Below, piece by piece: positions 7,050 through 16,026 of a stretch of DNA of 44,509 bases. The notes below the pieces were generated by a model. That model saw nothing but the letters and a program-made list of their open reading frames with translations, was not told the DNA's origin and searched no databases. This stretch comes from Candidatus Accumulibacter adjunctus (GTDB taxonomy: Bacteria; Pseudomonadota; Gammaproteobacteria; Burkholderiales; Rhodocyclaceae), in the NCBI GenBank assembly GCA_000585015.1, contig JFAX01000001.1:233805-278313 (forward strand), read 5' to 3'. The position numbers and the translations under genes are program-made. Positions within the stretch are counted from its first letter, which is position 1. The number at the start of each line of letters is the position of its first letter.

Positions 7050-8408
7050 ATGAACATCGTCATTCTCGCCGCCGGCCAGGGCAAGCGCATGCACTCCAAT
7101 CTGCCAAAGGTCCTGCATCCGCTGGCCGGCAAGGCGCTCGTCTCGCACGTCATCGACACCGCACGCAGTCTTGCGCCACAGCGAGTCTGCATCGTATACG
7201 GGCATGGTGGCGAGGCAGTGCGTGCTGCCATCACGGCGCCTGATCTCGTCTGGGTGCTGCAGGAGCCACAGTTGGGGACCGGGCACGCGCTGATGCAGGC
7301 ATTGCCGCAGCTGGCGGCTGCTGGAACGACACTGGTACTCTATGGCGACGTGCCCCTGACCCGGGTGGAAACACTGCAGCGGCTGCTGCATGCGGCACGT
7401 GACTCGCTGGCAGTGCTCACCGTCGAACTGGACGACCCGACCGGCTATGGCCGGATCGTCCGCAACGCTGCCGGCGACGTCGCACGCATCGTCGAGCAGA
7501 AGGACGCCTCGCCCGACGAGCGCACGATCCGCGAGATCAATACCGGCATCATGGCGCTGCCGACAGCGCGTCTCGCCGAATGGCTCGGCTGCCTGTCGAA
7601 CGACAACGCGCAGCGGGAGTACTACCTGACCGACATCGTCGGCATGGCGGTGGCCGCCGGACTGCCGGTGCGTACCGCCCAACCGGAGTCGGCAGCCGAG
7701 GTGCTCGGGGTGAACAGCAAGGTGCAGCTGGCCGAGCTCGAACGCGTCGCGCAGCGACGGATCGCCGATCAGTTGCTCACGCAGGGAGTCCGCCTGGCAG
7801 ACCCGGCACGGATCGACGTGCGCGGCGAGCTGGTCTGCGGCCGCGATGTCTTCATCGACATCAACTGCGTCTTCGAGGGCCGCGTGGTGCTGGACGAGGC
7901 AGTCGAAGTCGGCCCCTCCTGCGTACTGAAGAACGCACACATCGGCTCCGGCGCGCGCCTCGCCGCATTCAGCCACATCGAGGACGCAATCGTCGGACCG
8001 GACGGGGTGATCGGGCCGTTCGCCCGCCTGCGCCCCGGAACCGAGCTGGGTCCGGGGGTGCATGTCGGCAACTTCGTCGAGCTGAAGAACAGCCGCTTCG
8101 CTGCCCAGTCGAAGGCCAACCATCTGGCCTACGTCGGCGATGCGGTCGTCGGCAGTCGCGTCAACATCGGTGCCGGAACGATCACCTGCAACTACGATGG
8201 TGCCAACAAGTTCCAGACGGTGATCGAGGACGACGCTTTCATCGGTTCCGACACGCAGTTGGTGGCGCCGGTAACCGTTGGTCGCGGCGCCACCCTCGGC
8301 GCCGGCACGACGCTGACCCGCGATGCCCCGCCAGACACGCTGACCATTTCGCGTGCCCGGCAAACCTCCATATCGGGCTGGAAACGGCCGCAGAAAATCC
8401 GGAAGTGA
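7050..8408 (+). CDS. glmU: Bifunctional GlmU: GlcN-1-P acetyltransferase / UDP-GlcNAc pyrophosphorylase
   Basis: Makes UDP-N-acetylglucosamine for peptidoglycan and LPS: the C-terminal domain acetylates glucosamine-1-phosphate and the N-terminal domain adds UMP. The 452 residues are close to the 456 of E. coli. The N-terminal nucleotidyltransferase begins with the phosphate-binding motif LAAGQGKRM, with YGDVPL further on. The C-terminal half is a left-handed beta-helix of hexapeptide repeats with the family segment NFVELKNS and the acetyl-CoA region [13 protein letters not shown]. The start ATG is the first codon of the conserved MNIVILAAG sequence. glmS follows after seven bases, so the two consecutive enzymes of the route form one operon. 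Confidence 0.98.
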
Positions 8409-8415
8409 ACTGACC

Positions 8416-10245
8416 ATGTGTGGCATCGTTGCCGCGGTCGCCGACCGCAACATCGTTCCCGTCCTGCTCGAGGGCCTGCGCAAGCTCGAATACCGCGGCT
8501 ACGACTCGGCGGGCCTCGCCCTGATCGACGACAGCGGCCTGCGCCGACTGCGCGCAGTCGGCCGCGTTGCCGAATTGACGGCGCAGGTCGATGAGACGCA
8601 CGCCGCGGGCAACACCGGCATCGCACACACGCGCTGGGCGACGCACGGCGTGCCGTGCGAACGAAACGCCCATCCGCACATCTCCGGTGGGTTGGCCGTC
8701 GTCCACAACGGGATCATCGAGAACCACGAGTCGCTGCGCAGTCGCCTCAAGGACCTCGCCTATGTCTTCACTTCCGACACCGACACCGAAGTCGTCGCCC
8801 ATCTGATTGCCCATGAGTTGAAGACCGAGAGCGACCTCCTCGCTGCCGTTCGCCGGGCGGTTGCGCAACTGCAGGGTGCCTACGCGATCGCCGTCGTCCG
8901 TGAAGCGGATCCGAGCCGGCTCGTCGTCGCGCGTGAGGGCGCGCCGCTCCTTCTCGGTTTGAGTGGCAACGGGCTCTACGCCGCCTCCGATGCTTCGGCG
9001 CTGGTACAGGTCACGCGCCGGATGGTGTACCTCGAGAACGGCGACTGTGCCGAACTGACCCGCGACGGCTACCGCATCGCCCGCGTCGACGGTACGCCCG
9101 TGGAGCGGCCGGAAAGCGAATCGCAGCTGTCGGCCGATGCGATCGAACTGGGCAACTACCGGCACTACATGCAGAAGGAGATCTTCGAGCAGCCGGTGGC
9201 ACTGGCGAACACCCTCGAAATGCTCGGCGCCGCGCGCAGCATCCAGCCGGGCATCTTCGGCGCCGAGAGTGAGGAGCTGCTGCGCGGCGTGCGGCAGGTG
9301 CTGATCATCGCCTGCGGTACCAGTTACCATGCCGGTCTCGTGGCGCGCTACTGGCTCGAGTCGATTGCTGGTGTCGCCTGCTCGGTCGAAGTGGCGAGCG
9401 AGTACCGCTATCGCGACTCGGTCGCCGATCCGCGCACCCTCGTCGTCACCATTTCGCAATCGGGTGAGACCGCCGACACGCTGGCGGCACTGCACTACGC
9501 CAAGTCGCTCGGCATGCACCGCACCCTGTGCATCTGCAATGTTCCCGAGTCGTCGCTGGTGCGCGAGAACAGCCTGCGTTTCATCACCCGCGCCGGTCCC
9601 GAGATCGGCGTGGCGTCGACCAAGGCCTTCACCACCCAGCTCGCCGCTCTTTATCTGCTGACGCTGGTCCTCGCCAAGGTCCGCGACCGGCTCGACGCCG
9701 AGCAGGAGGCTGGCGAACTGCTGGCGATGCGACACCTGCCGATGGCGGTCAGCATGATCCTCGAACTGGAGCCGCAGATCCGCGAGTGGGCAGAGTGTTT
9801 TTCGATGAAGCAGCATGCCCTGTTCCTCGGCCGCGGCCGGCATTATCCGATCGCCATGGAGGGCGCGCTCAAGCTGAAGGAGATCTCGTACATCCATGCC
9901 GAGGCCTATCCGGCCGGCGAACTGAAGCATGGTCCGCTGGCGCTGGTCGATCGCGAGATGCCGGTGATTGCCGTGGCGCCCAACGACGTCCTGCTGGAGA
10001 AGCTCAAGTCGAACCTGCAGGAAGTGCGTGCGCGCGGTGGCGAACTCTGGGTCTTTGCCGATGCCGACAGCGAGATGAAGGAGTCGGACGGGATTCACGT
10101 GCTGCACCTGCCGGAGCATTACGGTGCCCTGTCGGCGCTGCTGCACGTCGTGCCGCTGCAGTTGCTCGCCTATCATGTCGCGCTGGTGCGCGGCACGGAC
10201 GTGGACAAGCCGCGCAACCTGGCGAAGTCGGTGACCGTCGAGTGA
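8416..10245 (+). CDS. glmS: Glutamine-fructose-6-phosphate aminotransferase (isomerizing)
   Basis: Converts fructose-6-phosphate and glutamine to glucosamine-6-phosphate, the first committed step of amino-sugar synthesis. It has 609 residues, the same length as the E. coli enzyme. Translation must start at the ATG at 8416, because removal of Met exposes the catalytic cysteine of MCGIVAA; the frame open upstream of it overlaps glmU and is not coding. An N-terminal class II glutaminase domain (HTRWATHG) is followed by two SIS sugar-phosphate domains ([10 protein letters not shown]). I see no glmS ribozyme, and the short glmU-glmS gap leaves no room for one. Confidence 0.98.
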
Positions 10246-10278
10246 GCCTGCGGGGTCGCCGTGGCGGCGAACCGGCTC
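10244..10278. terminator. Bidirectional hairpin between convergent genes
   Basis: TCGCC (10256-10260) pairs with GGCGA (10266-10270) around GTGGC, enclosed by an outer pair GAGCC (10244-10248) with GGCTC (10274-10278). It sits exactly between the convergent stops of glmS and the exonuclease-fusion gene. There is no T-run, so termination strength is uncertain. Confidence 0.4.
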
Positions 10279-12442
10279 AGTACTTGACGCGCGCGAAGTA
10301 GCTCTTTTCCGACGCCTCGAGCGCCTGCCGCAGGGTGACGATTCCCATCTGCGCCAACAGCGGCAGCATCCTGAGGAACACCTCGGCTGTCGCACAGGCG
10401 TCGCCGAGCGCGTTGTGGCGCCCGGCGATCACCACGCCCAGTCGCTCGGCGATGTGATCGAGCTGATGCGAGTCCTGATTGGCGTGCAGCACGCCGGAAA
10501 GCAGCAGCGTGTCGAGGACCGGCTGCCTGAACATCACGCCCGACGAATCCTCCTTCAACTGCAGAAAGCGCATGTCGAAAGCGGCGTTGTGGGCAACGAG
10601 CACGGTCTCGTTGCAGAAATCATGGAAAGCGGGCAGAACGGCGTCGATCTGCGGCTGTCCGCGGACCATGTCGTCGGTGATGCCATGAATGCGGATACCC
10701 TCGGGCCGCAGGAAGCGTTGTGGGTCAACGAGCTGATCGAAATTCTCGTGCCGCAGCAGTCGGCCATTGACGATGCGCACGGCGCCGATCTGGATGATCT
10801 CGTCGCCGGCAGCCGGTTCGAGGCCGGTGGTTTCAGTGTCGAAGACGGTGTAGGCGAGGTCGCTGAGCCGCCGGTCGAGATCGATGCTCTGGTCGCGGAA
10901 ATGAAAGAGGTCGAAATCATAGTACTCCGGGCGCACGCTCGGCTCGTCGCCGGCCGCTTGCGCCTGCAGGCTGTCGGGCAGGGCAACCGGCAGCACGAAG
11001 CGAAAGAAGGAGCGCGCGCTGGCCTTTTCTCGTTCGTACCAGATTTCCCCGCCGTGACGGTCGATCACGTCGCGCAGCGACAGCGGCGAGCTCTCCGTCC
11101 CGAGGTGCATGGTCTCGTTTTCCCAGGTCGTGAACGTCTCCAGCGAGATGGCGTGGTCGGCCCAGATCATGTCCAGGTAGGCCAGCCTGCCGAAAGGCAG
11201 CAGTCGGAAACGCAGTTCAGGGATGCGATGATGATGGACCAGCCTCGCAGCGAGGAAACAGATCGAGAAAACGAGCGAAAAGCTCTCGGCGCGCAGCCAG
11301 ACTGCCTCATCGATCTCCTCGTTGGCGGTTGCCAATTGCAGCTCCTGCTCGATGCGCCGCTGTGCGGCAACGACCAGATCGAGTCCTTGGACCTCTTCCA
11401 GCGGCCAGCGCGTCTTCAATGAATCGGCGAACTCGCTCATCGTCCGGTCGAGACGCTGGCTCATGCGGACGACCTCATCGCTGATGATGCCCATGAAGCG
11501 GTCACGGATCTCCGGCTCGATGTCGGGGTAGTCGAGCAGGTTGCCCACTGCGACGCGGATGTTGGCCAGGCTGCCGCGGGTGCCGTCGGTCAGGGATTGC
11601 AGAACCTGATCGCGACGGGATTCCTGTTCCAGGCTGCGGGTGATGTTCTCGACCGTCAGCACGTAGCCGGTCATCTCGCGCTGCTGCGGCGCGTCATCGG
11701 TCGCCAGGACGGGTACCAGCTGCACGCGCAGGAGCTGTCCGCCGCGTGCCGCGGTGATGAAAGTGGCGATCGCCGTGGCCGCGCCCTTGTGCAATCGCTG
11801 GCGGACGACGTCGAGAGCGTGGTCGATCTGACTGCGTTCGAGGATCGAGAAGATCGACCGGCCGAGCCCGATCAAGGCGCCACCGGCGACTGCCGTGGTT
11901 CCGAGCGCGAGTGCGCGGAACTGCAGTCGCGCCCGGCTGTTGTAAAGCAGGATCCTTCCCTCACGGTTGCACACCACGACCGCCTGGGCCAGTTCCGACA
12001 TCAGCGCCGCCAGCCGGTTCTTCTCCTCCTCGACCGACGACTTGGCGGCGGCAATCTGTGCCGCGACGTCGTCCATCAGACCGTCGCGCTGCTGTGCGAG
12101 CTCGTTCGTCGCCACCGCCAGCAGGCGGACCTCCGGCGGTCCTTCGGGGGTGACGCGGAAGTTGCGGTTCGCCGCCAGCATCAGGCGCAGGTTCTCGGCC
12201 ATCTTCAGCAGCCCCTGGACATATTCGCGAAAGAGATAGCGAATGACCAGGAGACCGACGAAGAAGCCAAAGGCGGTCATCATCGTACCCAGCGACAGGT
12301 GCGGCGCGATCAGGCGGATGAGCGCGGCACGCTCGTCCGCCTGCGCATCTGCCCAGATCAGTGCCGCCGTGATCAGGAAGGGGCCGGTCACCAGCAGGAA
12401 GAGGATGATGACCGAGATGGCCAGACGGAGGCGCGCGTTCAT
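10277..12442 (-). CDS. Membrane pseudo-histidine-kinase fused to a DEDDh 3'-5' exonuclease
   Basis: A 721-residue protein. Seen in order: two membrane segments (about 7-29 and 53-70), a HAMP-like linker, a probable coiled coil (about 115-150), a PAS-like domain (about 145-270), a histidine-kinase dimerisation-like helix pair (about 272-345), a decayed HATPase-like region ending in RHGGEIWYE (about 355-487), and a DnaQ-type exonuclease (526-721). The exonuclease has all its motifs: D535/E537 in FDTETTG, H618-D623 in HNAAFD and H676-D681 in HNALGD. By contrast, the expected phosphoacceptor His is absent (sequence LTDGTRGSLANIRVAV) and the ATP-lid glycines are replaced (ESSPLSLRD). Databases often label such proteins DNA polymerase III epsilon, but membrane anchoring makes a replisome role unlikely. 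I infer signal-controlled nuclease activity at the membrane; substrate and signal are unknown. Confidence 0.85.
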   Translation of the reverse strand: MNARLRLAISVIILFLLVTGPFLITAALIWADAQADERAALIRLIAPHLSLGTMMTAFGFFVGLLVIRYLFREYVQGLLKMAENLRLMLAANRNFRVTPEGPPEVRLLAVATNELAQQRDGLMDDVAAQIAAAKSSVEEEKNRLAALMSELAQAVVVCNREGRILLYNSRARLQFRALALGTTAVAGGALIGLGRSIFSILERSQIDHALDVVRQRLHKGAATAIATFITAARGGQLLRVQLVPVLATDDAPQQREMTGYVLTVENITRSLEQESRRDQVLQSLTDGTRGSLANIRVAVGNLLDYPDIEPEIRDRFMGIISDEVVRMSQRLDRTMSEFADSLKTRWPLEEVQGLDLVVAAQRRIEQELQLATANEEIDEAVWLRAESFSLVFSICFLAARLVHHHRIPELRFRLLPFGRLAYLDMIWADHAISLETFTTWENETMHLGTESSPLSLRDVIDRHGGEIWYEREKASARSFFRFVLPVALPDSLQAQAAGDEPSVRPEYYDFDLFHFRDQSIDLDRRLSDLAYTVFDTETTGLEPAAGDEIIQIGAVRIVNGRLLRHENFDQLVDPQRFLRPEGIRIHGITDDMVRGQPQIDAVLPAFHDFCNETVLVAHNAAFDMRFLQLKEDSSGVMFRQPVLDTLLLSGVLHANQDSHQLDHIAERLGVVIAGRHNALGDACATAEVFLRMLPLLAQMGIVTLRQALEASEKSYFARVKY

Positions 12443-13091: not shown

Positions 13092-13964
13092 ATGGGTCTG
13101 CGACTGAAATTCAATCTCGTGTTGCTCGCCGTGTTCCTTGCCGGCTTCGCCGTCACCGGCTACGTTTCCCGGACTTTGCTCGACCGGCACGCGCGCGAGC
13201 AGGTGCTTGGCGAGGCGCGCCTGCTGATGGAAGCGGCGTTGGCCGTGCGTGCTTATACGGTCGACCAGGTGCGGCCGCACCTCGTCGGACAGATGGACAA
13301 GGTCTTCCTGCCGCAGACGGTGCCGGCTTTTGCCGCCACCGAGACGCTTCAGCATCTGCGACGGAATTACGCCAACTACGCGTACAAGGAAGCGACGCTC
13401 AATCCGACGAACCTGCGCGACCGGCCCGCCGACTGGGAAGCCGACCTGATCCACAGCTTCCGGAACCGTGCCGAGCAGAAGGAGATCAGTGGTGAGCGCG
13501 ACACGCCCACCGGCCGGCTGCTCTACGTCGCCCATCCGATCCGCATCGAGTCGCCGGCCTGTCTTCAGTGCCACAGCACACCCGACGTCGCGCCACCGTC
13601 GATGATCCGCATCTACGGCCCGGCCAATGGCTTCGGCTGGAAGCTCAATGAGGTCGTCGGGGCGCAGGTCGTTTCGGTGCCGATGTCGGTGCCACTGGAG
13701 AACGCGGCGCAGGCTTTCCGCACCTTCATGGTGTCCCTGGCGGCGGTGTTCGCGGTCGTCTTCGTCGTCCTCAACCTGTTGCTCTCCTGGCTGATCATAC
13801 GACCGGTGACGCGCCTGTCGGCGGCGGCCGACAAGGTCAGCACCGGTGATTTCGAGCAACCGGAGTTTCCCGAAAAGGGCGGCGACGAGGTTGCCGTGCT
13901 GGCCAGTTCCTTCAACCGGATGCGTCGCAGTCTCGAGAAGGCGATGCAGATGATCGATGGCTGA
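13092..13964 (+). CDS. Haem-c receptor of the DUF3365 (Tll0287-like) type ending in HAMP
   Basis: A 290-residue membrane receptor. One N-terminal membrane helix (about 8-24) is followed by a periplasmic domain with a c-type haem site CLQCH (C157, C160, H161), a second helix (about 212-236) and a HAMP domain (about 237-285), after which the protein ends. The DUF3365/Tll0287-like fold is known as a haem-binding sensory domain, so redox state or a small ligand is the likely signal (inference). No output domain follows HAMP, which is unusual for such a receptor. The next gene, a Ser/Thr kinase, overlaps its last eight bases and is the obvious partner. The start is ATG 13092, with GGGAGG about ten bases upstream. 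Confidence 0.85.
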   Translation: MGLRLKFNLVLLAVFLAGFAVTGYVSRTLLDRHAREQVLGEARLLMEAALAVRAYTVDQVRPHLVGQMDKVFLPQTVPAFAATETLQHLRRNYANYAYKEATLNPTNLRDRPADWEADLIHSFRNRAEQKEISGERDTPTGRLLYVAHPIRIESPACLQCHSTPDVAPPSMIRIYGPANGFGWKLNEVVGAQVVSVPMSVPLENAAQAFRTFMVSLAAVFAVVFVVLNLLLSWLIIRPVTRLSAAADKVSTGDFEQPEFPEKGGDEVAVLASSFNRMRRSLEKAMQMIDG

Positions 13965-16026
13965 GCGAGCCATGAGCGGCGTGAGCAACGACGGCGCCGG
14001 CCAGGGACAGCGTCGCTCGTCGGCAGCCGACAACGACCTGCTGGCTCTGCCAGCCGGCCATGGCATGCACGAGTACCGGATTGATCGGGTTCTCGGCAGC
14101 GGCGGCTTCGGCATCACCTATCTCGCGCACGATACGCATCTCGACTGCCCGGTGGCGATCAAGGAGTATCTGCCGCGTGACACTGCCGGGCGGGGGCCTG
14201 GGCTGTCGGTGCGCCCGCACTCGACTGCCGGTGCCAGCTCCTTCGCCTGGGGTCTCGATCGGTTCCTGCAGGAATGTCGGGCGCTCGCCAGCTTTCACCA
14301 TCCCGCGATCGTGCGCGTACTGCGCTACTTCACTGCCAACGACACGGCCTACATGGTCATGGAATACGAAAGTGGAGACCCGCTCGACAGCTGGCTCGCC
14401 AGTCGCGCGCCCGTTGATGCCGCCACGCTGCAGCGCATCGTGCGACCCTTGCTCGACGGGCTCGAAACCATCCACAACACCGGCTTCCTGCATCGCGACA
14501 TCAAGCCGCGCAACATCTACATGCGGGCCGACGGCTCACCGGTGCTGCTCGACTTCGGCTCGGCCCGGCGCCTTGCCACGCAGGGACAGCAGCAGCTGCT
14601 GACCGCGGTCGTGACGCCCGGCTTCGCACCGGCCGAGCAGTACCTGCCTGACGGCAAGCAGGGCCCGTGGAGCGACCTCTACTCGCTGGCCGGGGTGATG
14701 TACTGGCTGGTCACGGGTCATCTGCCAACCGAGAGCCTGGCGCGGCTGCGCGAGGATCCGATGCCCGCTGCGGCGGCGATCGGGCGGGCCGACGTCTACG
14801 GCAAGTCGATGCTGCGGGCCATCGATTGGGCGTTGACGCCCGACGAGAACCTGCGCCCGCGACGGGTGGCGGATTTCCGCCGCGCCTGCCTGCCGTCGGC
14901 CGGGCAACCCGCGGTCGAAGCGGCCGACCCACCGGCGGTGCTGCCGACGCCCGGCAGTTCCTTCAGTGAAGGCTGCAGCTTCATCGGCGCGGTACTCTTC
15001 AGCGACGTGTGCGCTGCACCGACGCCAGTCGAGGCAGCCGCCGAGGCGGTGCACAAGGAGCACCGCCTGCTCCTGGCGACGCTGGTCGGCGAAGCCGTCG
15101 CCGGCTTGCCGGCGAACAGCCGCCTGGCAGCGAACACCCGTGAGGGTTGTGCCGTCTGCTACGTCGGTGACCCCGAGGATGCCCTGCGCACAGCCAGCCG
15201 GCTCAGCGCGGCAGCGAGCGAACGCGGGCTGGGCCTGCACATCGGCATCAACCTCGGGCCGGTACGCGTCCAGCCCGATCCCGGAGGCCGCTCTCGCCTG
15301 CTCGGTGATGGCGTTGCCAGCGCCTTCCGCGTCATGCGTTTCGCCGAGCCCGGCCAGGTGCTGGTCAGCGCCGCCTATGTCGATCTGATTGCGCAGCTGC
15401 GCCGCAGCGCGGCGACCTGTTTCACCGCACTTGGCCAGCGGCGCGACCCGCAGGACCGGGTGCATGATCTCTACCTTTACGTCGGTACTCCGGGCGCGCT
15501 CGCCTCGCAGCCGATCACCGCCAATGCCGCCGCAACGACGGCGAGTGATCTGACACCGGCCGTCGTCGAGGAGGCCGAACGGGTATTGACGGCGTACATT
15601 GGGCCGATGGCTCGCATCCTGGTGCGCAAGACGCTGCCGCGTGCCGGCGGACGCCAGGATCTGCACCGCCTGCTGGCGGAAATGATCCCCGACCCACCAG
15701 CGCGGTCGGCATTTCTCGCCGCGCTCACGCACAGGTTGCAGCAGCCCGCGGCGGGCGCCAAGACGGACAGTCATCATCCCGGCCCGCCTTCGTCAGCAGC
15801 CGCGGCCGCCGGCAGTGCAGCCGGCAGTGATCTCGCCGAGGCCGACTGCGAGCGCATTGGCCGGATACTGGCACGCCATATCGGCCCTCTGGCGAAGATT
15901 CTGTTGCGTCGCGAAGCCGCCCGGGCGGCCGACCTGGATTCGTTGTGCCGGGCGCTGGCCAGCCAGATCGACAGCGCCGAGCAGCGTGCGCACTTCCTCA
16001 GGGAGGTCGGTACGGAGCAGGGTTGA
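13957..16026 (+). CDS. Ser/Thr protein kinase with cyclase-like domain and duplicated C-terminal module
   Basis: A 689-residue soluble Hanks-type kinase. The glycine loop (LGSGGFG), K69 (VAIKEY), H179-R180-D181 with K183 and N186, D199-F200-G201 and the activation-loop end (TPGFAPAEQY) are all present, so it should be active. Residues 341-508 resemble a class III nucleotide cyclase (FSDV, INLGPVRV, LGDGVASAFRVM), but the second metal Asp seems replaced in TREGCAV, so catalysis is doubtful. Two copies of a module of about 60 residues follow (538-596 and 627-685), each with an IGP-(L/M)A-(R/K)IL(V/L)R core, separated by an Ala/Ser/Pro linker. The ATG at 13957 overlaps the receptor gene by eight bases; ATG 13972 is an alternative start. 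I infer that it phosphorylates targets in response to the haem receptor. Confidence 0.88.
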   Translation: MAERAMSGVSNDGAGQGQRRSSAADNDLLALPAGHGMHEYRIDRVLGSGGFGITYLAHDTHLDCPVAIKEYLPRDTAGRGPGLSVRPHSTAGASSFAWGLDRFLQECRALASFHHPAIVRVLRYFTANDTAYMVMEYESGDPLDSWLASRAPVDAATLQRIVRPLLDGLETIHNTGFLHRDIKPRNIYMRADGSPVLLDFGSARRLATQGQQQLLTAVVTPGFAPAEQYLPDGKQGPWSDLYSLAGVMYWLVTGHLPTESLARLREDPMPAAAAIGRADVYGKSMLRAIDWALTPDENLRPRRVADFRRACLPSAGQPAVEAADPPAVLPTPGSSFSEGCSFIGAVLFSDVCAAPTPVEAAAEAVHKEHRLLLATLVGEAVAGLPANSRLAANTREGCAVCYVGDPEDALRTASRLSAAASERGLGLHIGINLGPVRVQPDPGGRSRLLGDGVASAFRVMRFAEPGQVLVSAAYVDLIAQLRRSAATCFTALGQRRDPQDRVHDLYLYVGTPGALASQPITANAAATTASDLTPAVVEEAERVLTAYIGPMARILVRKTLPRAGGRQDLHRLLAEMIPDPPARSAFLAALTHRLQQPAAGAKTDSHHPGPPSSAAAAAGSAAGSDLAEADCERIGRILARHIGPLAKILLRREAARAADLDSLCRALASQIDSAEQRAHFLREVGTEQG

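Follow-up and report, generated by a model that had tools for sequence, protein, structure and literature searches.

Can a histidine kinase that has lost the residues of its own chemistry still serve a purpose when a nuclease is attached to it and, if so, what would it listen to? This question is raised by a gene of Candidatus Accumulibacter adjunctus, located within a 44,509-nucleotide stretch of contig JFAX01000001.1 (positions 233,805 to 278,313 of the forward strand; hereafter "the window" for this whole stretch). A minus-strand open reading frame (ORF) of 721 codons, delimited in an initial annotation exactly as found here, encodes two transmembrane helices followed by a HAMP-like segment, a PAS domain, the DHp and CA parts of a histidine kinase core and a DEDDh-type exonuclease domain. 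Beside most of the sampled relatives outside an Accumulibacter-like clade are encoded a short SSS-type transporter-kinase with an intact phosphoacceptor histidine and a single-domain receiver. The reading that we tentatively favour, as quite possible but short of probable, is that a DivL-like pseudokinase reads the state of this kinase and its regulator and gates the tethered exonuclease, the fusion forming the nuclease arm of an SSS-type (CrbS/CbrA-like) transporter-kinase module.

The pseudokinase and exonuclease halves of the fusion

Hydropathy, a structural model and alignments agree on the layout first proposed in the initial annotation (two membrane helices, a PAS-like domain, a kinase core without its histidine and ATP-lid glycines, and a DnaQ-type exonuclease), except that the HAMP-like segment at about residues 73-125 had been overlooked. 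In a hydropathy scan with 19-residue windows, residues 1-33 stand out as hydrophobic and residues 48-71 do so less strongly. The AlphaFold2 model, built from 22 sequences (mean pLDDT 76.3), starts with two long helices at the N terminus; a PAS-like alpha/beta fold (residues 154-266) and a helical hairpin (268-338) come next, and a CA-like alpha/beta fold precedes the exonuclease. A Foldseek search with this model retrieved the kinases WalK, VicK and ThkA (matches spanning about 350-480 columns with a high overall root-mean-square deviation) as well as DnaQ and PolC exonucleases. The PAS-DHp-CA fold of orthodox histidine kinases is also recognizable in profile matches: a profile of residues 78-490 matched VicK best among kinases, at E 9.5e-8, with weaker matches to others, and the hhalign comparison of the family with the kinase encoded beside its members (the linked kinase, see below) gave a probability of 97.4 and an E value of 9.3e-12. 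VicK carries a HAMP domain, and the HAMP-PAS-DHp-CA order is common to the fusion, VicK/WalK and ThkA, along with the domain folds; the fusion differs from these enzymes in the lost catalytic His, N-box, G1 and G2 residues and in the appended exonuclease.

Pfam detected no HAMP, PAS or kinase domain in the window protein itself. Among 22 diverse relatives scanned at E values of up to 0.1, RNase_T was found in 22, PAS_4 in eight, HAMP in three (best E 0.008), HisKA in two and HATPase_c in one. Because the window protein escapes Pfam in its kinase half, the kinase origin of that half is established via the profiles of the relatives and the model. A 355-residue frame (G021:C48:111370-112413) matches only residues 2-139 and 522-721 of the window protein and is possibly a natural form with the membrane/HAMP part and the exonuclease, without PAS and kinase core.

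The fate of the kinase residues was followed in a near family of 105 non-redundant relatives out of 114 matches (dropped before alignment were five sequences whose last 600 residues matched another row exactly, two of fewer than 660 residues and two duplicates of L002/L003) and in 22 distant members from a class-wide draw, in which 20 of 369 genomes matched (a lower bound, with at most four candidates scored per genome). At the position of the phosphoacceptor histidine, where the window protein carries D286, the near family has Glu (56), Asp (35) or Gln (14); a histidine stands there in 0/105 near and 0/22 distant members, and a relative with an orthodox phosphoacceptor was thus found in neither set. 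The Asp of the G1 box corresponds, in hhalign-based alignment, to a Trp (W427) in 105/105 and 22/22 sequences. Both N-box Asn positions are replaced, the first mostly by Phe, Tyr, Ser or Cys and the second by Arg or Lys in 105/105, and in the profile-profile alignment with the linked kinase no glycine of the window row aligns with the G2 glycines. The ATP-binding set of orthodox histidine kinases (N-box Asn, G1 Asp, G2 glycines) is therefore missing, and the family shares with DivL-like pseudokinases a lost histidine within a kept fold. A single decayed copy is ruled out by the sharing of these losses among 105 and 22 sequences; judged from the alignments, kinase death appears family-wide and is well supported.

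Might the core then be a decayed remnant devoid of any regulatory role, with only the exonuclease of importance? That the window protein gives no Pfam match in its kinase half would fit this explanation, as would the 355-residue relative that seems to be without PAS and kinase core. However, R289 and W427 are retained in 105/105 and 22/22 relatives and also in a homologue from Paracoccus denitrificans at 46% identity, and W440 and W468 in 105/105 near members and in 18/22 and 17/22 distant ones, respectively, which makes a mere remnant highly improbable.

The exonuclease domain is among the best-conserved parts of the near family and is matched by RNase_T at residues 533-689 (E 1.3e-35; 123.8 bits versus a cut-off of 24). 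D535, E537, H618, D623, H676 and D681, whose invariance alongside a constant loss of kinase residues was a question put by the initial annotation, are invariant in 105/105 sequences; H618 is conserved but lies outside the five canonical DEDDh residues. These five are complete in 105/105 near and 19/22 distant members and, together with the RNase_T match, place the domain in the DEDDh (DnaQ-like) 3'-5' exonuclease superfamily. Catalytic residues have been lost in 3/22 distant members; the formulation that the exonuclease is always intact was dropped for this reason, and a loss in most relatives was not observed. To judge from its residues, the nuclease looks intact, and mostly so across relatives. 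The closest solved structures by sequence are a Thermotoga PolC-type exonuclease domain (E 3.5e-31; 40-41% identity), PolC and E. coli epsilon, and the fold and the five catalytic residues are common to the fusion and these PolC/DnaQ-type exonucleases (2p1j, 1j53). An assignment as the replicative epsilon subunit was rejected, since the fusion scores below the cut-offs of the equivalogs TIGR01406 dnaQ_proteo (109 versus 222.7 bits) and PRK05711 (110.5 versus 196), although above that of the broad TIGR00573 domain (109.6 versus 71.5 bits). Related fusions had been said to appear in databases merely as DNA polymerase III epsilon; this applies to one of the 10 plasmid records listed (out of 49 matching), the other nine being named "exonuclease domain-containing protein". 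The accompanying remark that the fusion lacks a functional study agrees with the open-access literature, where none was among the matches listed (the subscription literature being mostly outside this scope).

Linkage to a transporter-kinase and a stand-alone receiver

The named loci of our neighbourhood analysis are the best 80 of 489 relatives. Identity to the window copy is 77-97% in 22 of the 80 (20 bear the title Accumulibacter and two Pseudomonadota; the nearest named protein record reaches 97%). In the 58 others, a 122-residue receiver is encoded near the fusion in 58/58, a CrbS-like SSS-type kinase in 55 and a DUF294 protein in 56; acs (encoding acetyl-CoA synthetase) is present in 48, a second exonuclease-like protein in 45 and an SSS symporter in 44, all of these counts shifting slightly lower under other thresholds. 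In Dechloromonas agitata (L031), for example, acs is followed by the genes of the kinase, the receiver and the fusion, and these by DUF294, a cyclic-nucleotide (cNMP)-CBS-DUF294 protein, the exonuclease-like protein and the SSS symporter, with Pfam domains confirmed for acs, both DUF294 proteins and the symporter. In a family draw, the 29 top-ranking loci (five of which repeat named loci) have the receiver in 26 cases and the kinase in 25, the three receiver misses being one same-genus locus and two contig ends. Over 96 loci the receiver-fusion gap has a median of 69 bases (maximum 4700), and the two genes share a strand in 95. We consider the linkage to kinase and receiver well supported. Both partners look active, with the phosphoacceptor His of the kinase kept in 93/93 rows and the phospho-Asp and Lys of the receiver in 97/97 (the L031 reference is counted twice in each). 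Since relatives stand beside an apparently active SSS-type kinase and a stand-alone receiver, the input to the protein is probably two-component signalling, and not only its own PAS domain.

The form of the kinase is informative as well. A close transporter-kinase of the linked type is carried by 18/229 genomes of the class sample. The short form (frames of 893-1030 residues) is present in 12 of these, 9/12 of which also have the fusion, whereas the fusion occurs in 0/6 of the genomes with only a long form (1171-1223 residues), a distribution with a hypergeometric chance of 0.0045 when relatedness is ignored. All three of the long forms scanned (L237, L238 and L242) have their own PAS and receiver domains; neither was found in the two short kinases scanned (L088 and L253), and a separate receiver of the linked family is encoded in 0/8 long-form loci. 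This suggests that in the short-form systems the receiver function, and possibly the PAS function, reside in separate proteins. The idea of a receiver dedicated to the nuclease was dropped upon finding it together with the short kinase in three fusion-free genomes; the receiver hence belongs to the kinase and is, at most, shared with the fusion.

The same association extends to distant relatives. Flanks were analysed for 20 of the 22 distant places (the G085 place, of kinase-receiver-fusion order, was added separately and G386 was excluded): kinase, receiver and fusion are together in 10, and the others have the kinase only (1), the receiver only (1), a weak receiver match (1) or neither (7). 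Three gene orders were encountered: kinase-receiver-fusion, receiver-fusion-kinase, and a receiver-kinase pair accompanied by a fusion gene of opposite strand. In the alphaproteobacterium Paracoccus denitrificans PD1222 the run consists of DUF294, an 81-residue protein without a Pfam match, a kinase of 901 residues, a receiver of 121 and a fusion of 706, the latter two genes overlapping by 4 bases; in this fusion the His position is occupied by Glu and the G1 position by Trp, and the exonuclease residues are complete.

A search of the genome of A. adjunctus with a DHp-only model of the fusion family gave an SSS-type kinase on contig 9 as the best match (44 bits, E 9.7e-11; next 19.5 bits), although among the 34 HisKA matches of this genome the same kinase ranks only ninth against the general HisKA model. 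In 22 further genomes, chosen for carrying the fusion, members of the fusion family were set aside; the top remaining match was in 21 of them an ORF of 904-1015 residues within ~4 kb of a fusion gene, by its size and place the linked kinase. This likeness of the pseudo-DHp fits descent from the linked kinase or binding partners shared with it. It also invites a different explanation with RetS/GacS as a precedent, in which mixed dimers of pseudokinase and linked kinase tune the kinase/phosphatase balance, the exonuclease having an independent role. DHp hairpins are dimer interfaces, and the three distant members that keep a pseudokinase while losing the exonuclease residues would be in line with such titration. 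On the other hand, those three are without a linked kinase, the exonuclease is among the best-conserved parts of the near family, and a single-chain fusion suggests coupling of the two halves; titration of this kind is in our opinion improbable.

Three copies of the fusion are encoded in the genome of A. adjunctus: the window copy and those on contigs 9 and 12, both 48% identical to it. The contig-9 copy is flanked by a DUF294 gene on one side and by the receiver and kinase on the other, and the contig-12 copy (L089:8175-10370) adjoins an MFS transporter. In a phylogenetic tree (a quick search with long-branch warnings; the distant rows L128, L129, L133, L137 and L138 were left out) the window clade falls into a set of 19 rows (SH-aLRT 100), 11 of them kinase-linked, with Dechloromonas, Sulfurisoma and Sulfuritalea among these 11. 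The copies on contigs 9 and 12 branch separately. From this grouping, the window gene is best read as an ortholog of the operon gene that left the kinase locus, with a diverged copy holding its place on contig 9. A description of the window clade as adjoining glmS had to be narrowed, as this gene was seen in 5/22 Accumulibacter-like loci.

A number of observations weigh against coupling of the fusion to the kinase and receiver or against an acetate context. The 22 Accumulibacter-like loci are without a linked kinase or receiver (L079 lacks upstream sequence); neither a kinase of the CrbS-like type nor a receiver or DUF294 gene of the corresponding family adjoins the window copy, and around the contig-12 copy no kinase, receiver or DUF294 match was found in 18 kb. 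A linked kinase is missing from 9/20 distant loci, some of them on short contigs. The link to acs is strong only in the window's bacterial family: the gene is near 1/20 distant loci, and no annotated acs occurs within 26 kb around the Paracoccus fusion gene. The three distant members with lost exonuclease residues and a kept pseudokinase half (L155, L156 and L161; family code f54) have neither a linked kinase nor a receiver. The occurrence of the receiver with the short kinase in fusion-free genomes speaks in the same direction, as does the DHp search in two of the 22 genomes, one with a best match nearly tied with another kinase (G075) and one with no match outside the fusion family (G019). 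The DHp likeness may be ancestry alone, and a CbrA-like origin of the short kinase, set against a CrbS function, is possible. Finally, at a pTM of 0.39 the model is credible for the domain folds, not for their mutual arrangement. An autonomous sensor would accommodate the unlinked copies: its HAMP/PAS half would sense a membrane or cytosolic cue of its own, with the dead kinase as a rigid dimer scaffold and the neighbours merely co-expressed. The window copy and other unlinked copies do persist with no kinase nearby, and the linker-PAS stretch (residues 121-200) is among the best-conserved parts of the family. Yet the DHp likeness points specifically to the linked kinase, and kinase and receiver stay associated with the fusion through changes of gene order; for these reasons we regard full autonomy as rather unlikely, though not negligible.

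Candidate control of the nuclease and the acetate context

The proposal of the initial annotation, a sensor module allosterically controlling a nuclease at the membrane, is still the best reading, now supplemented with a candidate source of the signal. Its starting point is a dead, membrane-carried kinase relative with a DHp closest to that of the linked kinase, fused to a DEDDh exonuclease whose catalytic residues are all present. The dead DHp/CA core would act as an input device, either binding the receiver in its phosphorylated state, in the manner of DivL with DivK~P, or forming mixed dimers with the linked kinase, and a shape change in this core would switch the tethered exonuclease. The nuclease could then trim a 3' end (of an mRNA, a small RNA or a nucleotide tail) or remove nucleotides added by the DUF294 nucleotidyltransferase, adjusting the uptake and use of acetate or related acids post-transcriptionally. 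In the window's organism the orthologous copy beside glmS would act in trans, the diverged second copy sitting at the contig-9 kinase locus. The docking, activity, substrate and acetate role are inferred here, in contrast to the well-supported linkage and kinase death; the complete chain, in which the transporter-kinase phosphorylates the receiver, which docks to its dead sister kinase and gates a 3'-5' exonuclease trimming or erasing DUF294 products, thereby setting acetate use post-transcriptionally, we consider unlikely to hold in every step.

DivL carries a Tyr in place of the phosphoacceptor, where the fusion has Glu, Asp or Gln. The Caulobacter protein is otherwise alike in combining PAS domains with a dead kinase core reused as an input sensor and, likely, in having a single-domain regulator as partner (PMC4211667). 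It differs in acting on another kinase, CckA (PMC9430884), the candidate output of the fusion being its own exonuclease.

In the window's own bacterial family the module is probably acetate-sensing. The CrbS/CrbR system of Pseudomonas and Vibrio (also MxtR/ErdR) likewise has an SSS-type kinase, and in this family the loci include acs, a symporter of the SSS type and a cNMP/CBS/DUF294 protein resembling Pflu5625, a cAMP/CBS/nucleotidyltransferase protein described within the CrbS/R regulon of Pseudomonas (PMC5715377, PMC9927547). CrbS is, however, a hybrid kinase, and CrbR activates acs transcription (PMC5715377), whereas the fusion loci encode a short kinase, a separate single-domain receiver and, in addition, the pseudokinase-exonuclease. 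A further parallel, drawn by description only, is PP_0353 of Pseudomonas putida, a putative exonuclease that is a MxtR/ErdR target and forms an operon with the CBS protein PP_0354 (PMC9927547). Its deletion impairs growth on pyruvate, not on acetate (PMC9927547). An RNase_T match is described for it, and no membrane, PAS or kinase part is mentioned in the passages on it (PMC9927547).

These neighbours suggest one more explanation, compatible with the gated-nuclease reading, namely that the DEDDh enzyme removes nucleotides which the DUF294 enzyme adds to a protein or RNA, with kinase and receiver setting the direction. A DEDDh-type exonuclease domain was found within a 1.5-kb flank in 21 of 30 DUF294_C loci (one genus code each), one of the 21 being the fusion family and one a pair on contig 11 of the window's genome; the Pflu5625 connection (PMC5715377) and a fused ORF described below point the same way. 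Against it stand the 9/30 DUF294_C loci with no exonuclease in the short flank, the window copy with no DUF294 neighbour, and the second exonuclease-like protein of the acetate cluster, which in 45/45 cases retains no more than one of its five catalytic positions. Nucleotide erasure thus seems a doubtful prospect.

The exonuclease-like protein in question is represented by a 221-residue ORF in D. agitata (L031:11212-11877) and by those of 44 further named loci, with DEDDh residues nearly all lost; an intact-looking and a dead exonuclease are hence encoded in one cluster. At another locus (L234:2177-4267), with acs, a short SSS-type kinase and a receiver, a single 697-residue ORF joins exonuclease-like, CBS and DUF294 parts, the exonuclease part looking incomplete by eye, which counts against nucleotide erasure as well.

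Features of the locus and significance

The features of the fusion gene and its convergent neighbour are collected in Table 1. The name glmS for the latter is our assumption from its translation. Further along (13092-16026, plus strand), the window encodes a Tll0287-like/HAMP membrane protein overlapping a Ser/Thr protein kinase; the C-terminal half of this kinase resembles a class III cyclase by eye, with no detection by Pfam.

Table 1. Positions in the window of the fusion gene, its parts and the adjoining gene.
Feature	Position	Strand	Basis
CDS, 721 residues, membrane-anchored HAMP-like/PAS/pseudo-histidine-kinase/DEDDh exonuclease	10277..12442	-	ORF, Pfam, alignment, AlphaFold, Foldseek
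Transmembrane helix 1, about residues 7-29	12356..12424	-	hydropathy; AlphaFold helix 3-32
Transmembrane helix 2, about residues 50-72, separated from helix 1 by ~15-20 loop residues	12227..12295	-	weaker hydropathy; AlphaFold helix 35-90
HAMP-like segment, about residues 73-125	12068..12226	-	Pfam HAMP in 3/22 relatives; predicted for the window copy
PAS domain, about residues 142-266	11645..12019	-	PAS_4 in 8/22 relatives; PAS_9 in Paracoccus homologue; model
Pseudo-DHp helical hairpin, residues 268-345, closest to DHp of linked SSS-type kinase	11408..11641	-	profiles, model
Codon of D286, phosphoacceptor His position	11585..11587	-	alignments
Pseudo-CA (ATPase-like), residues 346-488, without N-box Asn, G1 Asp and G2 glycines	10979..11407	-	model, profile alignment
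Codon of W427, invariant Trp at G1 Asp position	11162..11164	-	105/105 and 22/22
DEDDh exonuclease domain, residues 525-700	10343..10870	-	Pfam, NCBIfam, structure matches, alignment
glmS (presumed), convergent neighbour of fusion gene	8353..10245	+	ORF

Pseudokinases and DEDDh exonucleases are known kinds of proteins; a combination of the two next to a two-component pair seems, among the open-access matches listed, to be new. Two-component systems usually end in transcription factors or in cyclic-di-nucleotide enzymes, and a conserved dead kinase with an exonuclease, encoded next to an active transporter-kinase and a free-standing receiver, would represent an output of another type. The DUF294 nucleotidyltransferase and the DnaQ-like exonuclease, orphan members of the acetate switch that were noted in Pseudomonas with no mechanism attached, could also be assigned a role in this way. 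The presence of the operon in Paracoccus denitrificans PD1222 and Dechloromonas agitata makes it directly testable. Acetate uptake by Candidatus Accumulibacter matters for phosphorus removal in wastewater plants, and the arrangement described here suggests a little-known wiring of a nutrient sensor to a nuclease.

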